24,907 nt of DNA, from positions 1 to 24,907 of the IMG/VR virus record IMGVR_UViG_3300032323_000734; one strand, given 5' to 3'. Made by a program: the position numbers and the translations under genes. The stretch is from a virus. Below are positions 11,411-21,631 of this stretch, in pieces (positions within the stretch are counted from its first letter, which is position 1; the number at the start of each line of letters is the position of its first letter). Under the pieces are notes generated by a model, which was not told the origin of the DNA, did no database searches, and saw only the letters and a list, made by a program, of their open reading frames with translations.

Positions 11411-11689
11411 TTAATAAGATTTGTTTGAGTTTGGCAAATGTAATTTGTAGCCAGTGTATTCAACACCGCTACCTTTTTTAGAAGCACCGCCCAATTGCCT
11501 TGCTCCTGATTTAGCTCCAGCAGGTCTGCCACGACCACGCTTTACAGCTGGTTCTTTTGCTTGAGTAGAGTCGTTATCCTCTTTACCTTCTGGATCATCA
11601 TAGGATGTTCCATACTTACCTTTATGTACATAACGACCATCTTTAAATTCCATCTCAAGCATCATAGCGAATTCTTTGAATGTCTTCAT
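11411..11689 (-). CDS. Possible internal in-frame product with its own leader (92 residues)
   Basis: Inside the 508-residue gene, Met417 begins MKTFKEFAMMLEME, which matches the leader pattern of neighbouring genes (compare MLQFKEFLKE and T4 MKTYQEFIAE). On the minus strand ATG 11689 is preceded by GAGGA with a 4-base gap, a better ribosome site than many annotated starts here. Translation from it would give a 92-residue basic protein holding the AT-hook-like region. Alternatively it is the scar of a fusion of two genes. Unlike the others, residue 10 is Met rather than Glu. Confidence 0.4.
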   Translation of the reverse strand: MKTFKEFAMMLEMEFKDGRYVHKGKYGTSYDDPEGKEDNDSTQAKEPAVKRGRGRPAGAKSGARQLGGASKKGSGVEYTGYKLHLPNSNKSY

Positions 11690-12937
11690 AGTTTCCTCGT
11701 TGGTTTCTTTTTTACCTGTTAAGAAACGACCGAGATTTTTTAGATCGCTTTTAACTCCAGGTTTATCTTTTAAATAACTTTTGTCGGCAAGGTCATCGCC
11801 TTTCTTTGGTGTATCCCATGCGCCACGCTTCTTTAAGAAGTTAGCAACAATCTTATGGCCACGAGATTCTTCAATATCAGTCTCTTCTTTAGTTAAGCGA
11901 TCAACTGCTTTCTTAATATTGTCTTGACGCTTCCAAGATTTATTTTGAAAATCATTTGCAATACTAGTATTAGCATCTTTCATGCTTTGTTTTCTAGATG
12001 TTTTAGCACGATGTTCAAAGTCAGATGCAATCTTACGAGTAATTGTAGCATCGTCTGCTGCTTTCTTTACATAAGAACCGATAGTTGCTTTTGAAATCTC
12101 ATCGATAGATTCAACTTCTTCTTTAACACCTTTCTTAGCTGAGTAGTAAGCACCTAGTGCCATTTGTTGGCGTTCTTTCTTACTCTTACCTTCGAACTTA
12201 GGATTTTCGCTGTGAACAAAATCAGATATCCACTTACCTGCGCCATCAGAAACTTTTAAAACTTCTTCTAATTCAACTTCTTCTTTGACTTCTGGTAATT
12301 GTGAACCAATTTTAAATTTATGAACAGAACCAACTTTCTTATCATCATAAGAGTCATGAGTTTGTTTCATGTGAACTTCAGTGTCGTTCTTATGCATAAC
12401 TTTACCATGAACTTTGTCGCCAGTCTTTGGCTCGTAGTAATCCATAGTGTCACCAACAGACATATTTTTTGCCATGTTTGGATGCATCATACCAGCTGAA
12501 GCCAAGTCGCGATGATTTGCTTCGTCAAGAATTTCTTCGTTTGTTTTACCAAAGTGACTTTGTTTTAACTTATCTGGAATAGAGGTAAATCTCTCATGTC
12601 CTTGAATAGTTCCATACTTCTTTTGTTTTACAGTTTGCTGTAATGCTTTGCGAGCTAAATTTCTGGCACGGCTCATCGGACTGTGAACAGCACCAGACTT
12701 ATCGGTGATATTACCTTTAGTAGTTGTATATGGACCATCGAATGGTGGCTCAGTAGCCTCTTTCATATCATCGCACTCACACTTTACTTTACCGCAAACT
12801 TTACAAGGTGTTTCTTCTTTTTGTAGTAACTTAAAATCATGAGCATCGATCTTACCATTTTTGTTCTTATCAATCCTGTGCTGCTTACCTTTAAGCTGCT
12901 CTTGCATTTCTACATATGATTCGAATAATGTTTTCAT
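11411..12937 (-). CDS. Modular head-cargo protein with EF-hand loop, Cys cluster and AT-hook
   Basis: This 508-residue protein begins MKTLFESYVE, with Glu10 as in the neighbouring leader-bearing genes. In order: an EF-hand-like calcium loop DKNKNGKIDAHD (23-34); a CxxC...CxC cluster (Cys45, 48, 53, 55); low-complexity charged sequence; a block SDGAGKWISDFVHSENPKF (230-248) with KSKKERQQMALGAYYSAKKG (251-270) that I recall from many aquatic phages; a block EEVESIDEISKATIGSYVKK (273-292) also found in the 1343-residue neighbour; and an AT-hook-like KRGRGRPAG (466-474) in a basic tail. Linkers are acidic and contain Leu/Ile-x-Glu sites. AGGA precedes ATG 12937, four bases after the Dps stop. It is probably a capsid-interior, DNA-contacting protein; the modules' functions are unknown. 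Confidence 0.85.
   Translation of the reverse strand: MKTLFESYVEMQEQLKGKQHRIDKNKNGKIDAHDFKLLQKEETPCKVCGKVKCECDDMKEATEPPFDGPYTTTKGNITDKSGAVHSPMSRARNLARKALQQTVKQKKYGTIQGHERFTSIPDKLKQSHFGKTNEEILDEANHRDLASAGMMHPNMAKNMSVGDTMDYYEPKTGDKVHGKVMHKNDTEVHMKQTHDSYDDKKVGSVHKFKIGSQLPEVKEEVELEEVLKVSDGAGKWISDFVHSENPKFEGKSKKERQQMALGAYYSAKKGVKEEVESIDEISKATIGSYVKKAADDATITRKIASDFEHRAKTSRKQSMKDANTSIANDFQNKSWKRQDNIKKAVDRLTKEETDIEESRGHKIVANFLKKRGAWDTPKKGDDLADKSYLKDKPGVKSDLKNLGRFLTGKKETNEETMKTFKEFAMMLEMEFKDGRYVHKGKYGTSYDDPEGKEDNDSTQAKEPAVKRGRGRPAGAKSGARQLGGASKKGSGVEYTGYKLHLPNSNKSY
11694..11698 (-). promoter_or_regulatory. Internal Shine-Dalgarno site GAGGA
   Basis: Minus-strand GAGGA followed by AACT and ATG (11689) lies within the 508-residue coding region. 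It is what supports the internal start. Confidence 0.5.
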
Positions 12938-12939
12938 TA

Positions 12940-13389
12940 TTATCCTGCCTTATTTAAAGTTGATCTAAGCATCCAAGCATGTTTGCTGTGTGCTGCCATT
13001 CTGTCTTGTAGATAGTTAGATAAACCATCTTCCTTTTGCATATTTGCTAACTCGAATCCCTGTTTTAAGGAAGTCATTACTAATTCGTTTGCACTTAGTA
13101 AATCAGATAACATTCCAGTACAATCTGTTGGAGTAATTACTGAAGTATCTGGAACAGTTCTATACTTGTCGAATTCTAAGAGAGTGTGGATAGCACGACC
13201 TTTTATCTGGCGAATATGTTCTGCCGTAGTGTCGATGCTTCCATATACCTCTTGGTAGATATCTCCAAAAAACTCATGAAACATAGGGAAATATTCTCCC
13301 TCTACATTCCAGTGGTAGCCTTGTGCTTTTGTGTACATAACGAAACTATTCGCCAGTACCACTTTCATTTGTTCTACGAGCATTTCCAT
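12940..13389 (-). CDS. Dps-like ferritin-fold protein
   Basis: This 149-residue protein has the Dps signature: GYHWNVEGEYFPMFHEFFGD then SIDTTAEHIRQIKG. His26, His38, Asp53 and Glu57 fall at a constant offset of 25 from the E. coli Dps ferroxidase residues His51, His63, Asp78 and Glu82. The residue equivalent to Asp67 is Gly42, with Asp43 adjacent. Dps proteins form 12-mers that oxidise and store Fe(II), protecting DNA from Fenton damage; some bind DNA through an N-terminal Lys-rich tail, absent here. There is no leader like that of its neighbours. ATG 13389 and ATG 13383 are both possible. It sits in the middle of the head-cargo cluster, so late expression and an association with packaged or injected DNA are plausible but inferred. 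Confidence 0.88.
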   Translation of the reverse strand: MEMLVEQMKVVLANSFVMYTKAQGYHWNVEGEYFPMFHEFFGDIYQEVYGSIDTTAEHIRQIKGRAIHTLLEFDKYRTVPDTSVITPTDCTGMLSDLLSANELVMTSLKQGFELANMQKEDGLSNYLQDRMAAHSKHAWMLRSTLNKAG

Positions 13390-13394
13390 AAGTA

Positions 13395-13402
13395 TATTTA
13401 TT
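13395..13402 (-). promoter_or_regulatory. Late-promoter-like box AATAAATA (weak candidate)
   Basis: The minus strand reads AATAAATA, seven of eight matches to the T4 late consensus TATAAATA, in the 17-base gap before the Dps-like gene. Initiation would fall about at the first ATG, leaving almost no leader, so a role is doubtful. Confidence 0.2.
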
Positions 13403-13406
13403 CCTT

Positions 13407-16400
13407 TTATCTCTTCTTAATATTATGTTTTGTGTTTGGAGATGCTTTTGCAGCCTTTTTATGAAGTCTTTTTGCTTCAGTTTCTCTAACACGATTCGCC
13501 ATTTTCATAGCCAATCTGTTAATTACGCTTTGGAATTGAGGATTTTTCAACACTCCCTCAGCTCTCTCCTTGTCGCTAATGCTCATCTGACTTAGTGGCT
13601 TTTTAACAATTTTTGCCTTGATTGTTCTTATGGCTAAACGCTTGGCTCTTTGATTAATTCTCTCTGGAGTAGATTTAGTTCTTAAACGAATACTTAACAA
13701 ACGACCACGCTTTGTAGCATTTCTGGCAAATCTTACTTTAGATTTAAGTCTCTCAGTTCTAGACAAACCTTCCATAATACGATCGTCTTGTTCAATTTCA
13801 AACTCTTCGCCAGTTTCTTCGTCAACAATAATTAGTTCGTTATCGTCATACTCTTCCAACATATCTTCTAAATCGGCATATTCATTGACCATCTCGTCAA
13901 TTTCGTGCTCTTCAAAGAATGGATCAAATGGAGGAGTTCCGCCAACAGTCAAAGTTGCAGTATCAGCCTTTGGCTTTAATACTTTCTTTTTGGCTTCTTC
14001 TAATTCACTTTCTACTTCTTCTTTATTCATCAAACGAACTGTAGCACGACCAATACCATCTACATCTTTTTGGGTTGGAACTCCAGGTTTGCTAATTTTC
14101 TTTTTCAGATAAGATTTAACTGTTGATTTATCCAACTCATCAATTTGCTCAACTTCTTCGTTTTTAACTTTAGAATATTCTTTATCAAGATCTAACTTGC
14201 GCTGTTGAACTGCTTTCTGATCAACATCTTTGTTCATTGATAGTTGTTGTAATACTTTATTCTTTTCCTGATAATCTTTGTGTACATTGGCAGGATTTAA
14301 TTTAGATTCACCGAGATATGGCCAACCTGATTGTTTAGTTTCTGGATCAGTTTCAACTTCTTCTGGTTGCTCTTGTTTCGGCTCAGCTTTTTCTTTACCA
14401 ATCATTGAAGTCTGAGTAAGAACCCATGCTTCATAAGTTGGTTTCTTTACATCTTTTCCAACCAATCTTTTAAATTCTGCTCGTCTTGCTTTAGCAGCAT
14501 CAATCTTTTTCTTTAACTCAGGATCGGCTTTAACCATCCATCCTGGACGCATATTGTGTTCTGGTTTATAACCTTCGCCAAGTTCTTCTTTTGATTTTAA
14601 ATAATCTTTTACGCAAGTAATATAATCTTGAGCAAGAGTAATCTTAGACTGAACCCACTCAGGCATATTTTCATATGGAGTCAACATCATAATCAATTCT
14701 GTTGAGCTGCGAGCAATAGTCTGCAGTTGAGTTCTTGCCATTGCACCTTCGTAGTCGTACTCACCTTTGTCGATTGTATCAACTGCTTCGTCGAGGATAT
14801 CGATTAACTCGTCAAGTTCTTCTTTAACTGGCACACAATTTGGTACCATCTTAGAACCTTTTTTCTTTACTCCAATTTGTCTATACCCTGACCAGCATGC
14901 TTCTAATAACTCTTCATCAATTTCTTCGCCGAACATTGCACGATACTTCAATGTATGTTTGCTAAGTTTTGTTTTTGCGGTCGCATCTCCAGGTGCTGGT
15001 TCATATGCTGATGGATCGCTATCGCTTTTCTTATCCATCTTATCCCAGTGTGCTGCTCTGGCTTTAGCAGTGTCAGCAGATAATCCTGCTACATATTTTT
15101 TCGGAAGACCAGACTCTTTATCTTTGTCAACTCTTGGTAACTTACTAGTATCACCTTCTAAAATTTCTTCTTCGCGAAGATCTTTATCGGCACCGTGGTA
15201 AGTTCCCTTACCTTTAGTAATGTAAGAGTTCACTCGAGCCATACCCCACTGTTGCGGAGTTGTTCCTGGACGATGACCAGAATTCCATGCAGCTACACCA
15301 CGACGATATACCTTGCGTAGTGTACCGATTGATACACCAGATTTCTCAGCTTTAGCTGCTAATCCTGCATCAGCAGTCTCATTAATAGTTTCTTCTTTTA
15401 ATCTTTTGGCTAATTTATCAATTGAAGCTGACATAGATTTAGATCTCTCTTTGTCTGCTTCAGGGGAATATGGTTTATTCTTTTGTTTTTGATAGTATTC
15501 AGTGTCTGCTTGTTGTTGTTTTGCGCGAATATCAGCACCAGCTCTCCACTTATCAAGAGCAGACATTTTTGGTTTCTTATCTTTAACTAATCCACCTTGA
15601 GCACCGCTGGCTGCAAAGTTAATTCTGTTTGGGCGAATTTTATGGCTTTTAGTTTTTCCAGTAACTGGATCCACATGTTGATGAACAACATAGTCGGAAG
15701 CATAAACATCTTCTGATAATTTTTTAACATGAGCCATTACTTCATCATGGTCTAATGAACTGCGAGAATCTCGTTCGTTTTCAATATCTTTAATATGTTG
15801 TTTTGTAACATTATTACCATGCCGTTTTACTAATTCTTTTGCTATAGAAGCATAATTATCAATACCTTCGCCCAGTTGATACTTGACCTTTTGGCGACGG
15901 AGTGTGTCGTTTATATCAAAAGGTTTCTGCATAGCAAAACCAGTGGCAACATGTTTCGGTTCTGTTTTCTTTACCTCAGAATCGATATCAGATTCAGTCT
16001 GTTTACTAGTTGTCTTTGGTTCTTCAGGTTTCTTATAATCAGATGCAGAATCTTGACCCATCTCAACAGGTGGTTCAGTCATAGTAGAAGTCTTAATGAA
16101 ATCTTTGTAACGAAGCATTACTCGTTTAGTTTCTGGATCATTTCTTAATTTGTCGTTTGCCATAGTACCCTCTGTGTTTAGAGATTCTGCAACCTCTCCC
16201 TTACCTTTTTCGTAATAGTCTGCCATTAACATTTGTAATTCGTGACCATGACTATCCCAATAATCCATATGGTGCAAGAATTCGCCAATTCGTTCAAGAG
16301 ATTCTTTTGCTTTCATATGAGCATGAACCCATTGTTTGACTTCTGATTCAATTGGTGGTTTCATTTGTTCTAGATGAGTATCACCAATTTGCATATATTC

Positions 16401-17438
16401 GTCAGTGTGTTTCAGTGCATTGATAACTGCCACACAATCTTTAATTAACCCACCCTGATACTTAGCAATTGTTTGTTCAAATGCTTTTGCTGCATCGGCT
16501 GAGTGGTGTAAATTTTTTGTCGTATAACCTTTGAAACTAATTTCTTCAGGAGCATATCCACCTGGAATATCTTCTTGTACTTTCTTTAGTTTCTCAAAAT
16601 CATCTGGTCTAAGAATACTTTTTGCCAAATTATATTTACTTTTCTTGTTTATAACATCTTCAACTACAGTTACTTTATCAATCCACTTCTTAGACAAAAC
16701 ACCTGATTCATTTACGACTGTTATGTAATTTGCGCCACGATCCATGACTTCATAAACACCTTTGTCGTCTTGAACTTTATCTCCAACATTGAAGATTTCT
16801 CCAGCAACATATTGTTCACGAATTGAAGAGCGAGTAAACTCAACTACTCCTTTTAATGCGTCTAGACCAATACCTTTACGCACTTCATTCATCAATCGAC
16901 GCGAATCATGTTCGGTCAGCGTATGTGGTAATCCTTTTTTAAAATCATCAAACTTACCAGATTTTGCAGATTCACACATTCTTAAACCAGAAACACCTGA
17001 AGACAAATCGCTGTCTGGATCTGTACTTCCTGTTGATACTACTTTAATAGATTCAAAGGTAAACTCTTTATTGTTTGCTTTGTTTAATTGTTTTGTTACA
17101 TCAGCTACTTTATCTTCGCCAACAACTACAACTAAATTTTTATATTTCTCGTTTAATCGTTTAGCCAAAGAAACAATTGTTGGCTCAGTAGTTTCTTGGA
17201 AGTTTGTTCCTGGAAACATACGATTTAAAAAGTATACTTTTCGATCTACTGGTAGGGGATTATATTTTTTATCCTCGTTTGCAGAGGCATAGATGGTATA
17301 GTCTGCTGAAGATCCAGCAACTGTTTTAACAGATTTAATTAAATGTTCGTGAATTGAAGTTGGTGGCTGAAACGCACCAAAAGCAACTACTATTTTGTTA
17401 GAGGGTAACTCTTTAATTAACTGTTTAAAATTCTTCAT
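13407..17438 (-). CDS. Giant modular head-cargo protein; degenerate nucleotidyltransferase N-domain
   Basis: This 1343-residue protein begins MKNFKQLIKE (Glu10 leader). Residues 15-170 are a nucleotidyltransferase fold like the product of 17470-18078, but the TxGH motif is TSIH (27-30) and the KMR motif is replaced by LRMC (152-155), so catalysis is probably lost. A conserved block EHDSRRLMNEVRKGIGLDAL follows (176-195), then an SH3-like NVGDKVQDDKGVYEVMDRG (217-235). Later modules are AGLAAKAEKSGVSIGTLRKV through GTTPQQWGMARVNSYI (691-740; known to me as a DUF5824-like phage domain), CWSGYRQIGVKKKGSKMVPN (848-867), EEVEQIDELDKSTVKSYLKK (1094-1113), and a strongly basic end (1224-1343). Acidic linkers with Leu/Ile-x-Glu sites separate modules. 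Likely a capsid-internal protein or polyprotein cut by the prohead protease; unproven. Confidence 0.88.
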   Translation of the reverse strand: MKNFKQLIKELPSNKIVVAFGAFQPPTSIHEHLIKSVKTVAGSSADYTIYASANEDKKYNPLPVDRKVYFLNRMFPGTNFQETTEPTIVSLAKRLNEKYKNLVVVVGEDKVADVTKQLNKANNKEFTFESIKVVSTGSTDPDSDLSSGVSGLRMCESAKSGKFDDFKKGLPHTLTEHDSRRLMNEVRKGIGLDALKGVVEFTRSSIREQYVAGEIFNVGDKVQDDKGVYEVMDRGANYITVVNESGVLSKKWIDKVTVVEDVINKKSKYNLAKSILRPDDFEKLKKVQEDIPGGYAPEEISFKGYTTKNLHHSADAAKAFEQTIAKYQGGLIKDCVAVINALKHTDEYMQIGDTHLEQMKPPIESEVKQWVHAHMKAKESLERIGEFLHHMDYWDSHGHELQMLMADYYEKGKGEVAESLNTEGTMANDKLRNDPETKRVMLRYKDFIKTSTMTEPPVEMGQDSASDYKKPEEPKTTSKQTESDIDSEVKKTEPKHVATGFAMQKPFDINDTLRRQKVKYQLGEGIDNYASIAKELVKRHGNNVTKQHIKDIENERDSRSSLDHDEVMAHVKKLSEDVYASDYVVHQHVDPVTGKTKSHKIRPNRINFAASGAQGGLVKDKKPKMSALDKWRAGADIRAKQQQADTEYYQKQKNKPYSPEADKERSKSMSASIDKLAKRLKEETINETADAGLAAKAEKSGVSIGTLRKVYRRGVAAWNSGHRPGTTPQQWGMARVNSYITKGKGTYHGADKDLREEEILEGDTSKLPRVDKDKESGLPKKYVAGLSADTAKARAAHWDKMDKKSDSDPSAYEPAPGDATAKTKLSKHTLKYRAMFGEEIDEELLEACWSGYRQIGVKKKGSKMVPNCVPVKEELDELIDILDEAVDTIDKGEYDYEGAMARTQLQTIARSSTELIMMLTPYENMPEWVQSKITLAQDYITCVKDYLKSKEELGEGYKPEHNMRPGWMVKADPELKKKIDAAKARRAEFKRLVGKDVKKPTYEAWVLTQTSMIGKEKAEPKQEQPEEVETDPETKQSGWPYLGESKLNPANVHKDYQEKNKVLQQLSMNKDVDQKAVQQRKLDLDKEYSKVKNEEVEQIDELDKSTVKSYLKKKISKPGVPTQKDVDGIGRATVRLMNKEEVESELEEAKKKVLKPKADTATLTVGGTPPFDPFFEEHEIDEMVNEYADLEDMLEEYDDNELIIVDEETGEEFEIEQDDRIMEGLSRTERLKSKVRFARNATKRGRLLSIRLRTKSTPERINQRAKRLAIRTIKAKIVKKPLSQMSISDKERAEGVLKNPQFQSVINRLAMKMANRVRETEAKRLHKKAAKASPNTKHNIKKR

Positions 17439-17469
17439 TTTTATCCATCTATAAAATATAACTTACTGT

Positions 17470-18078
17470 TTATTTATGCCCCATGCCATTTCGAACATCA
17501 TGGTACATTTCGTCTTTTTGTTTGCTACTCATCGATGACGGAGCACCAGCATGAAAGTCTTTCTTATTACCAGCTGATGCATGCTCTCTCATTTTACTTG
17601 CTGAAATACCAGTAGTTCCTTCGGCATCTGGATCTCTCTCACCAGAAGAATGTACTGTTACTGACTTAAAATTATAAGTGCCATGAGCAGACTTTTTACC
17701 ATTATATTTGTTCAATAATGTTTTCATTTCTCCAGCACGATCAGAACCAGCAACAACATGTAAATGTTGAACACCTTGCTTATGCATTTCTGCAGCATGG
17801 TGTAGAATTGTTGGTGCTTCTTTACTTGCTGCTTTTACATTAGTTTTTGGAAATGCAGCTTTAGCATGCTTAACTTTTTGTTCAGCAGTAAGTGGATTCT
17901 TCTTAGCATCTTGGCTATGAGAAACAACCAACTGATGCGATGCGTTATGTTCTTTGGCAACTGAGTGTAGTTTATTGACAACTGCTTCGTGACCAGAAGT
18001 AATTGGATTCATACGACCAAAGGCAAGAACTCCATGTTTCTCGTCAGCTTCAACTAGATATTGAGTAAATGATTTCAT
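17470..18078 (-). CDS. Nucleotidyltransferase (HxGH/TxGH superfamily) with capsid-targeting-like leader
   Basis: The 202-residue protein begins MKSFTQYLVE. The start at ATG 18078 is chosen because it overlaps the preceding stop as TAATG and gives the shared leader; a longer frame to 18105 adds nine residues without merit. It contains the motifs of the cytidylyltransferase-like/NMNAT-PPAT superfamily: FGRMNPITSGH (20-30, TxGH), VVAGSDRAGEM (108-118), and GISASKMREHA (157-167, ISxxxxR type). These enzymes transfer a nucleotide from ATP or CTP with release of pyrophosphate. Substrate is not readable from sequence; NMN (NAD synthesis) is one option. His content is high (about 9%). The gene lies between a small cargo gene and the giant protein, whose N-domain is its decayed paralogue. 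Confidence 0.9.
   Translation of the reverse strand: MKSFTQYLVEADEKHGVLAFGRMNPITSGHEAVVNKLHSVAKEHNASHQLVVSHSQDAKKNPLTAEQKVKHAKAAFPKTNVKAASKEAPTILHHAAEMHKQGVQHLHVVAGSDRAGEMKTLLNKYNGKKSAHGTYNFKSVTVHSSGERDPDAEGTTGISASKMREHASAGNKKDFHAGAPSSMSSKQKDEMYHDVRNGMGHK
17471..17478 (-). promoter_or_regulatory. Late-promoter-like box CATAAATA (candidate)
   Basis: The minus strand reads CATAAATA, seven of eight matches to the T4 late consensus, across the last codons of the nucleotidyltransferase gene. Its start point would lie about 25 bases before the giant gene's ATG (17438), a workable leader with GGAT near the start. Because the bases also encode His-Lys-stop, chance is possible. Confidence 0.35.
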
Positions 18079-18356
18079 TAGCAATCCCATGCTCTTCTTG
18101 ACCAATAGTTGGCAGAAGTTTTGTCTGTTAAATTACCCTGACCACCTGACCGAGCACAATATGATCTTTTTCTGGCAGGAATATGTTTTTTAATACTTAA
18201 TGTTTTATCGCCGAAGTTTACCTTCTGTGCTTTACCATCTCCGTCTGGATCAACAAACACTTTAGATTTCTTAACATCACCAGCCATAGGTTTGTTAAGG
18301 GAAACAGTCTTACCTTTGTAGGTAGCTTCTTCTAGATATTCTTTAAATGATAGCAT
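18078..18356 (-). CDS. Small basic protein with capsid-targeting-like leader
   Basis: The 92-residue protein begins MLSFKEYLEE at ATG 18356, one base after the preceding TAA; the frame can be extended to 18371 but that loses the leader position. After the leader come KKSKVFVDPDGDGKAQKVNF, GDKTLSIKKHIPARKRSY and CARSGGQGNLTDKTSANYWS, ending RRAWDC. The pattern VFV-D...KVNFGD...I...ARKxxxxRxG...T..YWSxRxW is familiar to me from several phage proteins annotated only as unknown; the small Cys/Trp-containing end may be a metal or nucleic-acid binding module. It is coupled to the nucleotidyltransferase gene by a TAATG overlap. Confidence 0.85.
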   Translation of the reverse strand: MLSFKEYLEEATYKGKTVSLNKPMAGDVKKSKVFVDPDGDGKAQKVNFGDKTLSIKKHIPARKRSYCARSGGQGNLTDKTSANYWSRRAWDC

Positions 18357-18357
18357 T

Positions 18358-19506
18358 TTATTTTGTCGCAAATCTTGGGTTGTTTAAAATTGAATTTGAA
18401 ACTTTAACAGGAACTAATTTAGTAGCAGGTCTCATTTTTCCTGTTGAATCTTTCTGTTGAAGAACGATGCCTTCGCCTTGGGATTTCTTTCCATCGATAG
18501 ATGTTTCCATATCTGGATGTTCAATACCCTTTAATACATGTTCAGTTGCTTGTCCTAAGTGATGACGAATCTGTAGTGATCTTTCAAAGTGTTGCACATG
18601 ATCATCAACATGAGATTGTAGTGATTCAAATTTGGCTTTAGTTTTTTGTTTACCTGCATCAGTTTTTAATTTACCTGCTGCCTTGTCACCCTCATCACTT
18701 AGATGTTTCTTATATCCCTCGATAGAAGCTGTTTCGCCACGACGAGTAGTTCTATTTAAATAAGTGTTAAAGTGTCCACCCTTTTTAATATCAATATGTT
18801 CAGGTGTAAGATGATCAGTTGTATGTTTCTTTAATAAAGATTTGGCAGCATCAATATGTTTCTGAGTTGCTTCTTTGTCTTTATCTGAGTAGGTAGAAGG
18901 GTCTGCCTTATACTCATGCTCAGGAACAAACACATTAGGACTCTTACTTAATGCTTCTTTAGAAACGCCATGAGCAACACCTTTAGTTATCTCTGTATGA
19001 ATAGCGATACCAAGAGGTGCTTTAGTTTTTGCTTTATAGGTAATTCTATTTGGAGTTGTGCTTGTTGTTTGACCAGACTTTTCTCCAGGTGCTTCAGGAG
19101 TGTGTAATAAATCTCCTTGAACATGGTGTCCTTTATTAACAAACTCGTGACCATGCTTCAATAAATGTTTTAGTGATGCTGCATATTCTGGAGCATGACC
19201 AAAGTGTGTATCTATTTCTTCAGGAGTTCTGGCAATAACACCTCTAGACATTCTGTGTTTGTCTGAGATACCAATACCTTTGTTATCATGTATAACATGA
19301 ACTGATGCACCACCATCCGTCTTAAGTGATGCTCCGACTGGGCTCGACTTACCCATTCTCTTATTATGAAATTGTTGTAGCAATTCAACTGCAGTATTTG
19401 TATGCTCAGGAGCTTCGTGCGGTAGATCTTTAGTATGTGTTAGATGTCCCAGCATCTCATCATCAACTGAGGTTGCTTCTTTTAAAAATTCTTTAAACTG
19501 CAGCAT
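18358..19506 (-). CDS. KxDG ligase-like nucleotidyltransferase with capsid-targeting-like leader
   Basis: The 382-residue protein begins MLQFKEFLKE at ATG 19506, one base after the preceding stop. Motifs of the covalent nucleotidyltransferase (DNA/RNA ligase, capping enzyme) superfamily occur in the right order: Lys62-Thr-Asp-Gly (SLKTDGGASVHVI, motif I with the nucleotide-accepting Lys), QGDLL (about 130-134, motif III-like), LGIAIHTEI (motif IIIa-like), GEGIVLQ (Glu345, motif IV) and KLVPVKV (motif V). The enzyme should become adenylylated on Lys62 and could seal or end-modify nucleic acid. Between motifs IIIa and IV lies a long His/Lys-rich helical insert. No oligonucleotide-binding domain follows, unlike typical DNA ligases, so an RNA ligase-like or novel activity is possible. 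His is about 8% of residues. Confidence 0.85.
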   Translation of the reverse strand: MLQFKEFLKEATSVDDEMLGHLTHTKDLPHEAPEHTNTAVELLQQFHNKRMGKSSPVGASLKTDGGASVHVIHDNKGIGISDKHRMSRGVIARTPEEIDTHFGHAPEYAASLKHLLKHGHEFVNKGHHVQGDLLHTPEAPGEKSGQTTSTTPNRITYKAKTKAPLGIAIHTEITKGVAHGVSKEALSKSPNVFVPEHEYKADPSTYSDKDKEATQKHIDAAKSLLKKHTTDHLTPEHIDIKKGGHFNTYLNRTTRRGETASIEGYKKHLSDEGDKAAGKLKTDAGKQKTKAKFESLQSHVDDHVQHFERSLQIRHHLGQATEHVLKGIEHPDMETSIDGKKSQGEGIVLQQKDSTGKMRPATKLVPVKVSNSILNNPRFATK

Positions 19507-19507
19507 A

Positions 19508-20869
19508 TTAATCCTCAAACTTATGATTATCTAACTTGGCTGTCATAACACGACCTTTGTGTGCACCAGAACCAGTCTTAGCACCAAGAGTCATAACATT
19601 CTTTGGCTTACCACCTTCTTTTGGTGTACCTTTAATAACAATGTTATTTGCACCACTATGTGAAACATGCAAGTCAGTAAAGTTGTCTGTATGTTTTTTG
19701 CCCATGCCAGCCATTGGAATTAATTTATGTTTTGCAGTTCCATCTGCTTGAACATGAGAGTGCGCAATCCAATGTTCAGTTACTGTTTCAGGAGAAGCAA
19801 CTGAGTGGATTAATTCACGCAATTCTGAGTCAGACTTTTTCTTCAAGCCACCAGCAATATCACTGGTAACTTTCTTGGTTGTTTCATCAGCACTTTCTCT
19901 TGCTTGCTGAGCACGCTGTCTAGCCAGCATTTCATTTTGTTGTGGAGTGCCATGTTCTGCGTTGTTTATATAATCTAGATACATACCTAGATGTTCATGC
20001 ATAGTTTTTTCTTTGCCTTCTAATGGCTTCAATTTATGCTTAGCAGATAATTCTTTATGAAGAGATTTCGCTCCAAGTATTTTCTTACCTTTGGCATCAA
20101 CTCTATCATTAACACCCATCTCATCAATCTTGGTTTGAATATTTCTTGTGTCAGCCGAACCTGTATAACCAAGTTCATCTGTTTTCTTTTTATGTTCTTG
20201 CTGATGTTTATCGAGCGAACCACTTTCTAATCCAGCATGTTGCTCCATTGTATCTAAACCCATATTGGCTAGATTTGCTTTTGCTGTATATCCATATTTG
20301 TCAGACCAAGCGACATGTCCAAACACTTTTGGTTTACCATCTTCGCCAAGAATTTTGTTTCCATCTTTATCAACTTTGTGCATCTCAGTCATACTGTCAC
20401 CTTTAGCATTAGGATCGTGTATGCCTGTTGTCTTTTGGTGATCGCCACTAATCTTCTCACCTTTTTTATTTACTTTGTCTGGGTTTGAAGTCCAGTAACT
20501 ATTACCATGGACAAATCCTTTGCTTGATGGATACTTCTTTTCTATAACTTTTTTCTGCTCAAGATGCATTTCATAAGCATGTTTATTGATTTCTTGATAT
20601 GCAGCTTCGCCAACTTTCTTACGAAGTTTATCGTGTACTTGTTGGGGAGTTCCAGCATGGTCAGGATTTTCTGACTCGGATCTGTGGTGAGATGGTAAAT
20701 GAAAGTCTGGATGTTCTGGATCTTGATGCCAACCACCCTTTGTGTCAGGATGCATGTACCCAGCTTTAATGATTTCGTACAGCTTACCCTTGTCGTCTGC
20801 TTGGGTATCTTTACCAGCTGTATCTTCTACTAGAAATTCTTCTTTAAGGAAGTCTTTAAACTTTAACAT
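19508..20869 (-). CDS. His-rich protein with capsid-targeting-like leader, unknown function
   Basis: The 453-residue protein begins MLKFKDFLKE at ATG 20869, five bases after GGA; an earlier frame start at 20884 would bury the leader. It is strongly hydrophilic, with about 33 His (7%), many Lys, and no membrane segment. The middle looks like an extended or helical chain with Asp/Asn-Gly turns (VDKDGNKILGEDGKP, 170-184). The last 80 residues, from WIAHSHVQADGTAKHKLIP to VMTLGAKTGSGAHKGRVMTA, look like a compact beta domain. I do not recognise the family with confidence. It is the first gene after the late promoter and the first member of the six-gene leader cluster, so it is probably made late and packed into the head. 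Confidence 0.85.
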   Translation of the reverse strand: MLKFKDFLKEEFLVEDTAGKDTQADDKGKLYEIIKAGYMHPDTKGGWHQDPEHPDFHLPSHHRSESENPDHAGTPQQVHDKLRKKVGEAAYQEINKHAYEMHLEQKKVIEKKYPSSKGFVHGNSYWTSNPDKVNKKGEKISGDHQKTTGIHDPNAKGDSMTEMHKVDKDGNKILGEDGKPKVFGHVAWSDKYGYTAKANLANMGLDTMEQHAGLESGSLDKHQQEHKKKTDELGYTGSADTRNIQTKIDEMGVNDRVDAKGKKILGAKSLHKELSAKHKLKPLEGKEKTMHEHLGMYLDYINNAEHGTPQQNEMLARQRAQQARESADETTKKVTSDIAGGLKKKSDSELRELIHSVASPETVTEHWIAHSHVQADGTAKHKLIPMAGMGKKHTDNFTDLHVSHSGANNIVIKGTPKEGGKPKNVMTLGAKTGSGAHKGRVMTAKLDNHKFED

Positions 20870-20941: not shown

Positions 20942-21631
20942 TTATTTATAGTTATTATACTTGCGTTCCCAGACTAAAATCTTGCGCAGAAGGAGTGGAA
21001 TAACCTCATTATGTTTATCTGTTCTGAAGATTCTTTGGATTCCAGAGAGGTTTTTAGATACCTTATAGGTCTTGGCATATCTAATTAGAGTGGCTATTGG
21101 AACTGTTGGACGCTTGTTCTTAAAGTCTAGGTATACGCAGTGGGCATATGCCTCAATCTCGTCACGACCAGCATGGTAGTCTCTGTTATTGTCGATCTTT
21201 TCTATGCCAGTTCTGGAGAAGTAAACCTTGCTTGCGCAATATTCCTCATGTTTACCATAGTACTGTTTACAGTGGATTAGTTCATGCATTGCAACCTGAA
21301 TAACCCTATACTTGAAACGATCCCAACTGGCTTCTGTAAACTTATACTTGTTAAAATCTGTATCTGGACTAGTCCAAAGATCTAACTCAGAACGACCTGT
21401 ATCTGGATAGTAACCACCACCAACGGCAATATATTTGGTTGGCTTAGTTTCTTGGTGCCATACAATGCTGAAACGCCACTTCTTGAAATAATTTATCAAG
21501 CCAGTGGCGTCATTTTCATACTTATCAAGATCAGTCCAGACTTTTGCTGGAACAAACTTTGCCCTGAATGGACGATCATCAAAGTTCAGCATATCGATAA
21601 AGTCGAAGTCTAAACTCTGAATGTATCTCAT
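20942..21631 (-). CDS. HExxH zinc-metallopeptidase-like protein
   Basis: This 229-residue protein has the zinc motif HELIH (116-120) in QVAMHELIHCKQYYGKH, and a downstream DEIEAYAH (157-164) whose Glu is spaced as the third ligand of gluzincin-type enzymes. The N-terminal half (KWRFSIVWHQETKPTKYIAVGG region) looks beta-rich as in small SprT- or M78-like peptidases. No signal peptide is visible, so it acts in the cytoplasm or virion. ATG 21631 lies six bases after the glycosyltransferase stop. Target unknown: host-protein cleavage, or processing of a phage protein, are both possible. Homologues with the same HELIH...DEIEAYA pattern occur, as I recall, in other aquatic T4-like phages without assigned function. 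Confidence 0.8.
   Translation of the reverse strand: MRYIQSLDFDFIDMLNFDDRPFRAKFVPAKVWTDLDKYENDATGLINYFKKWRFSIVWHQETKPTKYIAVGGGYYPDTGRSELDLWTSPDTDFNKYKFTEASWDRFKYRVIQVAMHELIHCKQYYGKHEEYCASKVYFSRTGIEKIDNNRDYHAGRDEIEAYAHCVYLDFKNKRPTVPIATLIRYAKTYKVSKNLSGIQRIFRTDKHNEVIPLLLRKILVWERKYNNYK
20943..20950 (-). promoter_or_regulatory. T4-type late promoter TATAAATA
   Basis: The minus strand carries an exact copy of the T4 late promoter consensus recognised by the phage sigma factor gp55 with the sliding clamp. It overlaps the stop codon of the HExxH gene and lies 74 bases before ATG 20869, so it would start late transcription of the six-gene head-cargo cluster. It is the only exact copy I found in the window. 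Confidence 0.75.

Follow-up and report, generated by a model that had tools for sequence, protein, structure and literature searches.

In bacteriophage T4, the internal proteins IPI, IPII and IPIII carry the capsid targeting sequence (CTS) MKTYQEFIAE (Mullaney and Black 1996, as described in PMC9026906 and PMC3012670). Targeting of IPIII depends on residues 4 and 7 and its processing on residues 8 and 10; the prohead protease gp21 cuts after L/I-x-E, and the first ten residues of IPIII are enough to package a foreign protein (PMC9026906). An N-terminal signal also sends unrelated cargo into the head in phage P1 (DarB; PMC9024508) and in the giant phages SPN3US and phiKZ (propeptides; PMC5694885), the latter likewise with a Glu-specific prohead protease. 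We analyzed a 24,907-base viral contig (IMG/VR record IMGVR_UViG_3300032323_000734), a fragment from a T4-like phage of uncultured marine source; the window is this entire contig. Five consecutive genes (13407-20869) very probably each begin with a CTS of the T4 type, attached here to a tandem block of enzyme cargo. All genes of interest are on the minus strand.

An earlier, sequence-only reading had quoted six N-termini as one 10-residue leader. All six were read exactly so at their minus-strand ATGs, and the common leader held for the genes starting at 20869, 19506, 18356, 18078 and 17438 (consensus M-x-x-F-x-x-[F/Y/L]-[L/I]-x-E), but not for the gene starting at 12937 (MKTLFESYVE). With a slash at the predicted cut after E10, the five leaders were MLKFKDFLKE/E (gene 1, 20840-20869; profile score 21.7), MLQFKEFLKE/A (gene 2, 19477-19506; 20.9), MLSFKEYLEE/A (gene 3, 18327-18356; 20.6), MKSFTQYLVE/A (gene 4, 18049-18078; 19.6, with orthologue leaders aligned) and MKNFKQLIKE/L (gene 5, 17409-17438; 19.5). 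Thus, the five consecutive genes scored 19.5-21.7 bits, and the other 22 genes in the window scored -6.6 or less. When each gene's own family was removed from the training set (leave-family-out), scores were 12.7-20.7, and 0-1 of 2,914 internal Met-started 10-mers, which served as the null set, scored as high (gene 1, 20.3 and 0/2914; gene 3, 18.8 and 0/2914; gene 4, 15.6 and 1/2914; gene 5, 12.7 and 1/2914). The sole null 10-mer exceeding a leader was MKSFKAYISE, located inside a longer open reading frame (ORF) of the relative G002, and it looks like a genuine internal (fused) leader. In four of the genes, a TTG upstream of the ATG opens a slightly longer frame (20884, 19518, 18371 and 18105). 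The ATG starts are supported because relatives conserve the leader and not the residues upstream of the ATG, so the leader does fix the start codon in these four genes, as had been proposed.

The conservation sample consisted of 57 distinct leaders of five families, taken from about 60 IMG/VR relatives. F4 and E10 were each found in 57/57; position 8 was L, I or V, position 7 was mostly F, Y, L or I, and positions 2, 3, 5, 6 and 9 were variable. The leader was retained across the five families in homologues with bodies only ~30% identical, and the gene 1 homologue in L055 (33-41% identical) kept it as MLSFISFLIE. Indels and linkers started immediately after E10 in the homologue alignments. Within the DUF6267 family (gene 2), F4 and E10 were invariant in 18 homologues and also in 32 N-termini whose codons differed synonymously, and synonymous codon variation was also seen at F7, L/I8 and E10. 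The constraint therefore acts on the protein, and start-codon context was ruled out as the source of the shared letters. The leader is real and selected at the protein level, and its conserved columns (4, 7, 8 and 10) are those that are functional in T4 IPIII.

The marine-trained profile was applied to the 276 ORFs of T4, where only 61.1, ipI, ipIII and ipII (in rank order) exceeded 6 bits; the probability that the top four would include the three internal proteins by chance is 1.2e-6. The CTS assignment made in the sequence-only reading is thus borne out both by conservation of the functional IPIII positions and by recovery of IPI, IPII and IPIII. Cutting ipI after ITE-19 leaves 76 residues, which is the published mature length (PMC3012670). 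As in the T4 internal proteins, the window leaders are ten residues long and N-terminal, with an aromatic residue at position 4 and, except for L in gene 5, at position 7, L/I8 and E10, often followed by Ala; as in T4, the cargo is otherwise unrelated, and relatives of the window phage have a protease of the gp21 type and a gp23 with an LxE site. Position 4 is Y in the T4 leader and F in the window leaders. The T4 cargo comprises three small basic proteins (IPI being anti-restriction), whereas the window cargo is a tandem block of proteins of 92-1343 amino acids (aa) that includes ligase-like and nucleotidyltransferase enzymes. The other systems are more distant: DarB differs in sequence, its first 30 residues sufficing in P1, and in SPN3US cuts occur at AxE and several propeptides exceed 100 residues. 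The T4 gene with the top leader score (23.7 bits), 61.1 (NC_000866 18966-19130; L182:467-631), encodes 54 aa beginning MKTFKEFIKED and is annotated as hypothetical; judged from this N-terminus, its product may be an unrecognised head protein.

Published virion proteomes of cyanophages contained leader-bearing proteins. S-CREM2 has 52 virion proteins by mass spectrometry (MS) (PMC10665884 Table 3). A strict rule, M..[FYW]..[FYWLIM][LIVMF].E at annotated starts, matched four of 218 coding sequences (CDS) scanned (219 in total): gp6 MKDFDSFLEE, gp14 VKRFDAFLTE, gp136 MQTFSMFFSE and gp154 MKNFSSFLTE. All four were MS-detected in the virion and none was assigned as structural (Fisher P = 2.2e-4 against the 28 virion proteins with no assigned structural role; P = 0.003 against all virion proteins). 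The protein gp6 is a SAM lyase (PF23780), and one of the four is orthologous to the nucleotidyltransferases of the window. A near match to the rule, gp13 (MKDLHSFLTE), was also MS-detected. In S-SM1, the single profile match was the T4-GC190 cytidylyltransferase, which was detected in the virion (PMC3037559). The MS table of S-SZBM1 includes a cytidylyltransferase with the leader MRFRQFIIE/A and, from the same cluster, products of 457 aa and 199 aa; the leaderless DUF6267 neighbour of the cytidylyltransferase is absent from the list. S-PM2 had no leader match by profile; its cytidylyltransferase is fused to a DUF6267 domain, is leaderless, and went undetected in the virion (PMC3037559). The presence of leader proteins in S-CREM2, S-SM1 and S-SZBM1 virions supports the CTS reading. 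The S-CREM2 product gp12 (L094:7704-10313), called Cas9 in GenBank and PMC10665884, had no Pfam match and matched only an unknown PHROG; this name seems doubtful. About 17 residues past its annotated start, gp12 has a leader-like RFASFMAEA.

The processing machinery of T4 was also searched for. Neither gp21 nor gp22 was found in the 24.9-kb contig, itself a fragment, and a search of the contig with the Pfam S77 peptidase family gave no match, the control being likewise without one. Homologues of gp21 were found in the near relatives G001, G002 and G006 and in 9/9 reference phages, T4 included; G006 is ~96-99% identical to the window phage over the first two cargo genes. In each of these phages, gp23 has an LxE at the T4 cut position (for example T4 LTE/AEIGG, G006 LFE/T, Melnitz LSE/A, G001 LNE and G002 LSE). 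Together, gp21 and the gp23 LxE in relatives also favour the CTS reading.

Several observations weigh against it. The genes for gp21, gp22 and gp23 lie outside the contig, and we infer packaging in this virus from T4 and from the virions of relatives, none of these virions being its own or those of close kin. The strict rule was written after the S-CREM2 virion N-termini had been seen, although not those of the non-virion CDS. The top profile match of S-SZBM1, gp085 (105 aa), is missing from the MS list of that phage, and a leader is lacking from many virion proteins of cyanophages. Some orthologues are leaderless (HTVC008M cytidyltransferase, MKTLKELLRK; the S-PM2 fusion), and the leader is therefore not obligatory for the family. 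Among the published peptides that were accessible, none has its N-terminus at residue 11.

The cargo genes differ widely. Gene 1 (19508-20869) encodes a 453-aa protein with no Pfam or PHROG match and no known relatives beyond close kin; its AlphaFold model (predicted local distance difference test, pLDDT, 58) was too weak for a fold search. Gene 2 (18358-19506) encodes a ligase-like DUF6267 protein (PF19782, E = 5e-26) with ligase-type motifs KxDG at K62, EGxV at E345 and KLV at K363; K62, D64, G65, E345, G346, V348 and K363 were invariant in 21 sequences. It had no sequence relative in PDB, and its PDB fold matches were mostly ATP-dependent DNA and RNA ligases, these being weak (best E 0.015, from a model of pLDDT 65). 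Because the motifs are invariant and the fold matches, weak as they are, consistently point to ligases, the DUF6267 protein is probably a covalent nucleotidyltransferase of the ligase type. Gene 3 (18078-18356) encodes a 92-aa module (phrog_7595) that occurs as an internal or C-terminal domain of larger proteins in other phages. Gene 4 (17470-18078) encodes an NMNAT/cytidylyltransferase-like protein of the HxGH type (PF01467, E = 9.5e-5; phrog_3041, E = 4e-59) that belongs to the T4-GC190 family of cyanophages, orthologues of which are found in cyanophage virions; PF01467 was above the cut-off, and 511-514 phage records matched the family. Gene 5 (13407-17438) encodes a 1343-aa composite protein (phrog_3041, E = 1.5e-75; PF19141, E = 2e-16) consisting of an N-terminal nucleotidyltransferase, DUF5824 and a CWxGY..VPNCVP module. 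The cargo proteins had been called otherwise unrelated, which is correct insofar as they belong to different families or to none, but the products starting at 18078 and 17438 are paralogous nucleotidyltransferases (34% identity, same PHROG). In position, the block corresponds to the cytidylyltransferase cluster of other marine T4-like phages, close to genes for helicase and ribonucleotide reductase.

The leader was also found on further families in relatives, with 17 leader-bearing clusters in all. In one relative, L015:613-1410 codes for an ADP-ribosyltransferase of 265 aa (PF03496, E = 1.8e-7) whose leader is MITFLNFMAE/A. It resembles T4 Alt, a packaged ADP-ribosyltransferase processed by gp21 at L/I-x-E. 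The L015 protein has a leader of the internal-protein type, whereas Alt undergoes processing at both termini (PMC9026906) and gave no profile match in T4. Two tiny basic proteins of 57 and 62 aa (L089:14652-14837 and L022:8620-8808) carry the leader and a Lys/Arg-rich tail, a layout like that of T4 gp61.1. In P-SSM2 (NC_006883), PSSM2_194, PSSM2_115 and PSSM2_211 (158143-159417, 100269-100529 and 169737-171458) bear leaders and are predicted head cargo.

If the T4 scheme applies, the leader would bind the prohead scaffold core, and the ligase-like, NMNAT/cytidylyltransferase-like and other cargo would be enclosed during head assembly. By analogy with T4, a gp21-type protease would then cut after Glu10 (L/I-x-E/). 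More tentatively, the mature proteins may exit the head together with the DNA and be active in the host as infection begins. Alternatively, targeting and cutting of the leader take place as above, but the cargo functions within the head, in scaffolding or DNA condensation, and no host-takeover set is injected. We regard this version as possible but unlikely: no role in the host has been settled for IPIII or IPII of T4 (PMC9026906), and the cluster holds a Dps/ferritin-like gene and many Lys-rich proteins, but leader bearers include enzymes or host-directed factors such as the S-CREM2 SAM lyase (PF23780) and the L015 ADP-ribosyltransferase (PF03496), and ligase-like DUF6267 and NMNAT-like proteins also carry the leader. 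It is improbable that the shared N-terminus is some other signal only resembling a CTS, either an amphipathic helix for docking to a membrane or complex or a translation start context. MxxFxxFLxE could form a short amphipathic helix, and cleavage at E10 is only predicted; this explanation conflicts with conservation in the protein amid synonymous codon variation, with the choice of three T4 internal proteins by the profile, and with the finding of leader bearers in virions. Spread of the leaders by duplication of one gene, with retention by common descent and without function, is very improbable. Two of the five genes are indeed paralogous nucleotidyltransferases, but the other gene bodies are unrelated, orthologues exist both with and without the leader, and the functional positions have been conserved amid divergence elsewhere, purifying selection being limited to positions 4, 7, 8 and 10. 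Chance similarity, conceivable for so short a motif, was refuted statistically by the 19.5-21.7 bits of five contiguous genes against -6.6 or less elsewhere and by a rule that matches 1/850 internal Met 10-mers.

Under the CTS reading, a further, tentative extension treats the leader proteins as cargo polyproteins built of modules: one N-terminal tag would carry several linked domains into the prohead, and a gp21-type protease would then free the domains at L/I-x-E sites on their borders. The 80-residue module of the gene at 18078-18356 has homologues in L001, L003, L013, L035, L036, L038, L039, L041, L065, L067 and L072. An [LIVM]xE site stood directly before it in 11/11 distinct occurrences, both where the module forms a protein by itself and where it lies within a longer one, compared with a background of 13% (P = 2.6e-10 if the occurrences are independent). 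The 1343-aa product of gene 5 contains 22 internal [LI]xE sites compared with 13.9 expected (P = 0.014), and leader-like elements also occur inside longer ORFs. On the other side, two other modules had the site in 5/15 (P = 0.047) and 0/4 occurrences, the module sequences are related, and the test was framed after some examples had been seen. Polyprotein cutting at the DUF5824 border was rejected (0/4), and a general [LI]xE enrichment among the cargo proteins was not observed, only the 1343-aa protein being enriched.

The sixth gene (11411-12937), which encodes a 508-aa protein without the canonical N-terminal leader, was rejected as a CTS gene: it scored -6.6, 53/2,914 null 10-mers were equal or better, and most homologues do not retain the leader. 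An internal leader-like element, MKTFKEFAMMLE (11654-11689, minus strand), is found directly before its AT-hook-like KRGRGRPAGAK tail, with a profile score of only 4.1. The element is kept in L003, and similar elements occur in L055 (MKTYSDLISQLDE) and L060 (KKTLKEFVQDLLE). A Dps/ferritin-like protein (PF00210; 12940-13389) is encoded within the block and has no leader. Adjoining the block, 20942-21631 encodes a 229-aa protein with a HELIH zinc-metalloprotease-like motif and no family match in Pfam or PHROG.

In the open-access literature searched, we found no paper reporting a CTS in cyanophages or marine T4-like phages. The closest accounts concern the virion-associated cytidylyltransferase/NMNAT of cyanophages (T4-GC190; PMC3037559, PMC10665884, PMC9146016 and PMC9602691), which is homologous to the products of 17470-18078 and 13407-17438; unlike the present analysis, in which the leader supplies a packaging signal, the portions of these accounts available to us report presence in the virion without one. 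The mechanism itself is known from the T4 CTS; what is new is that it occurs in a large marine group, that its cargo is tandem and rich in enzymes, and that it accounts for published proteomes. Marine cyanophage virion proteomes repeatedly hold cytidylyltransferase, SAM hydrolase and kinase-like proteins, and their reports, in the portions available, leave unsaid how, or whether, these are truly packaged. Such virion enzymes are explained by a transferable ten-residue tag, which also fixes start codons and predicts, from sequence alone, the head cargo of ocean T4-like phages, uncultured ones included. It points to a probable host-takeover or counter-defence set of SAM lyase, ADP-ribosyltransferase, ligase-like and NMNAT-like enzymes.

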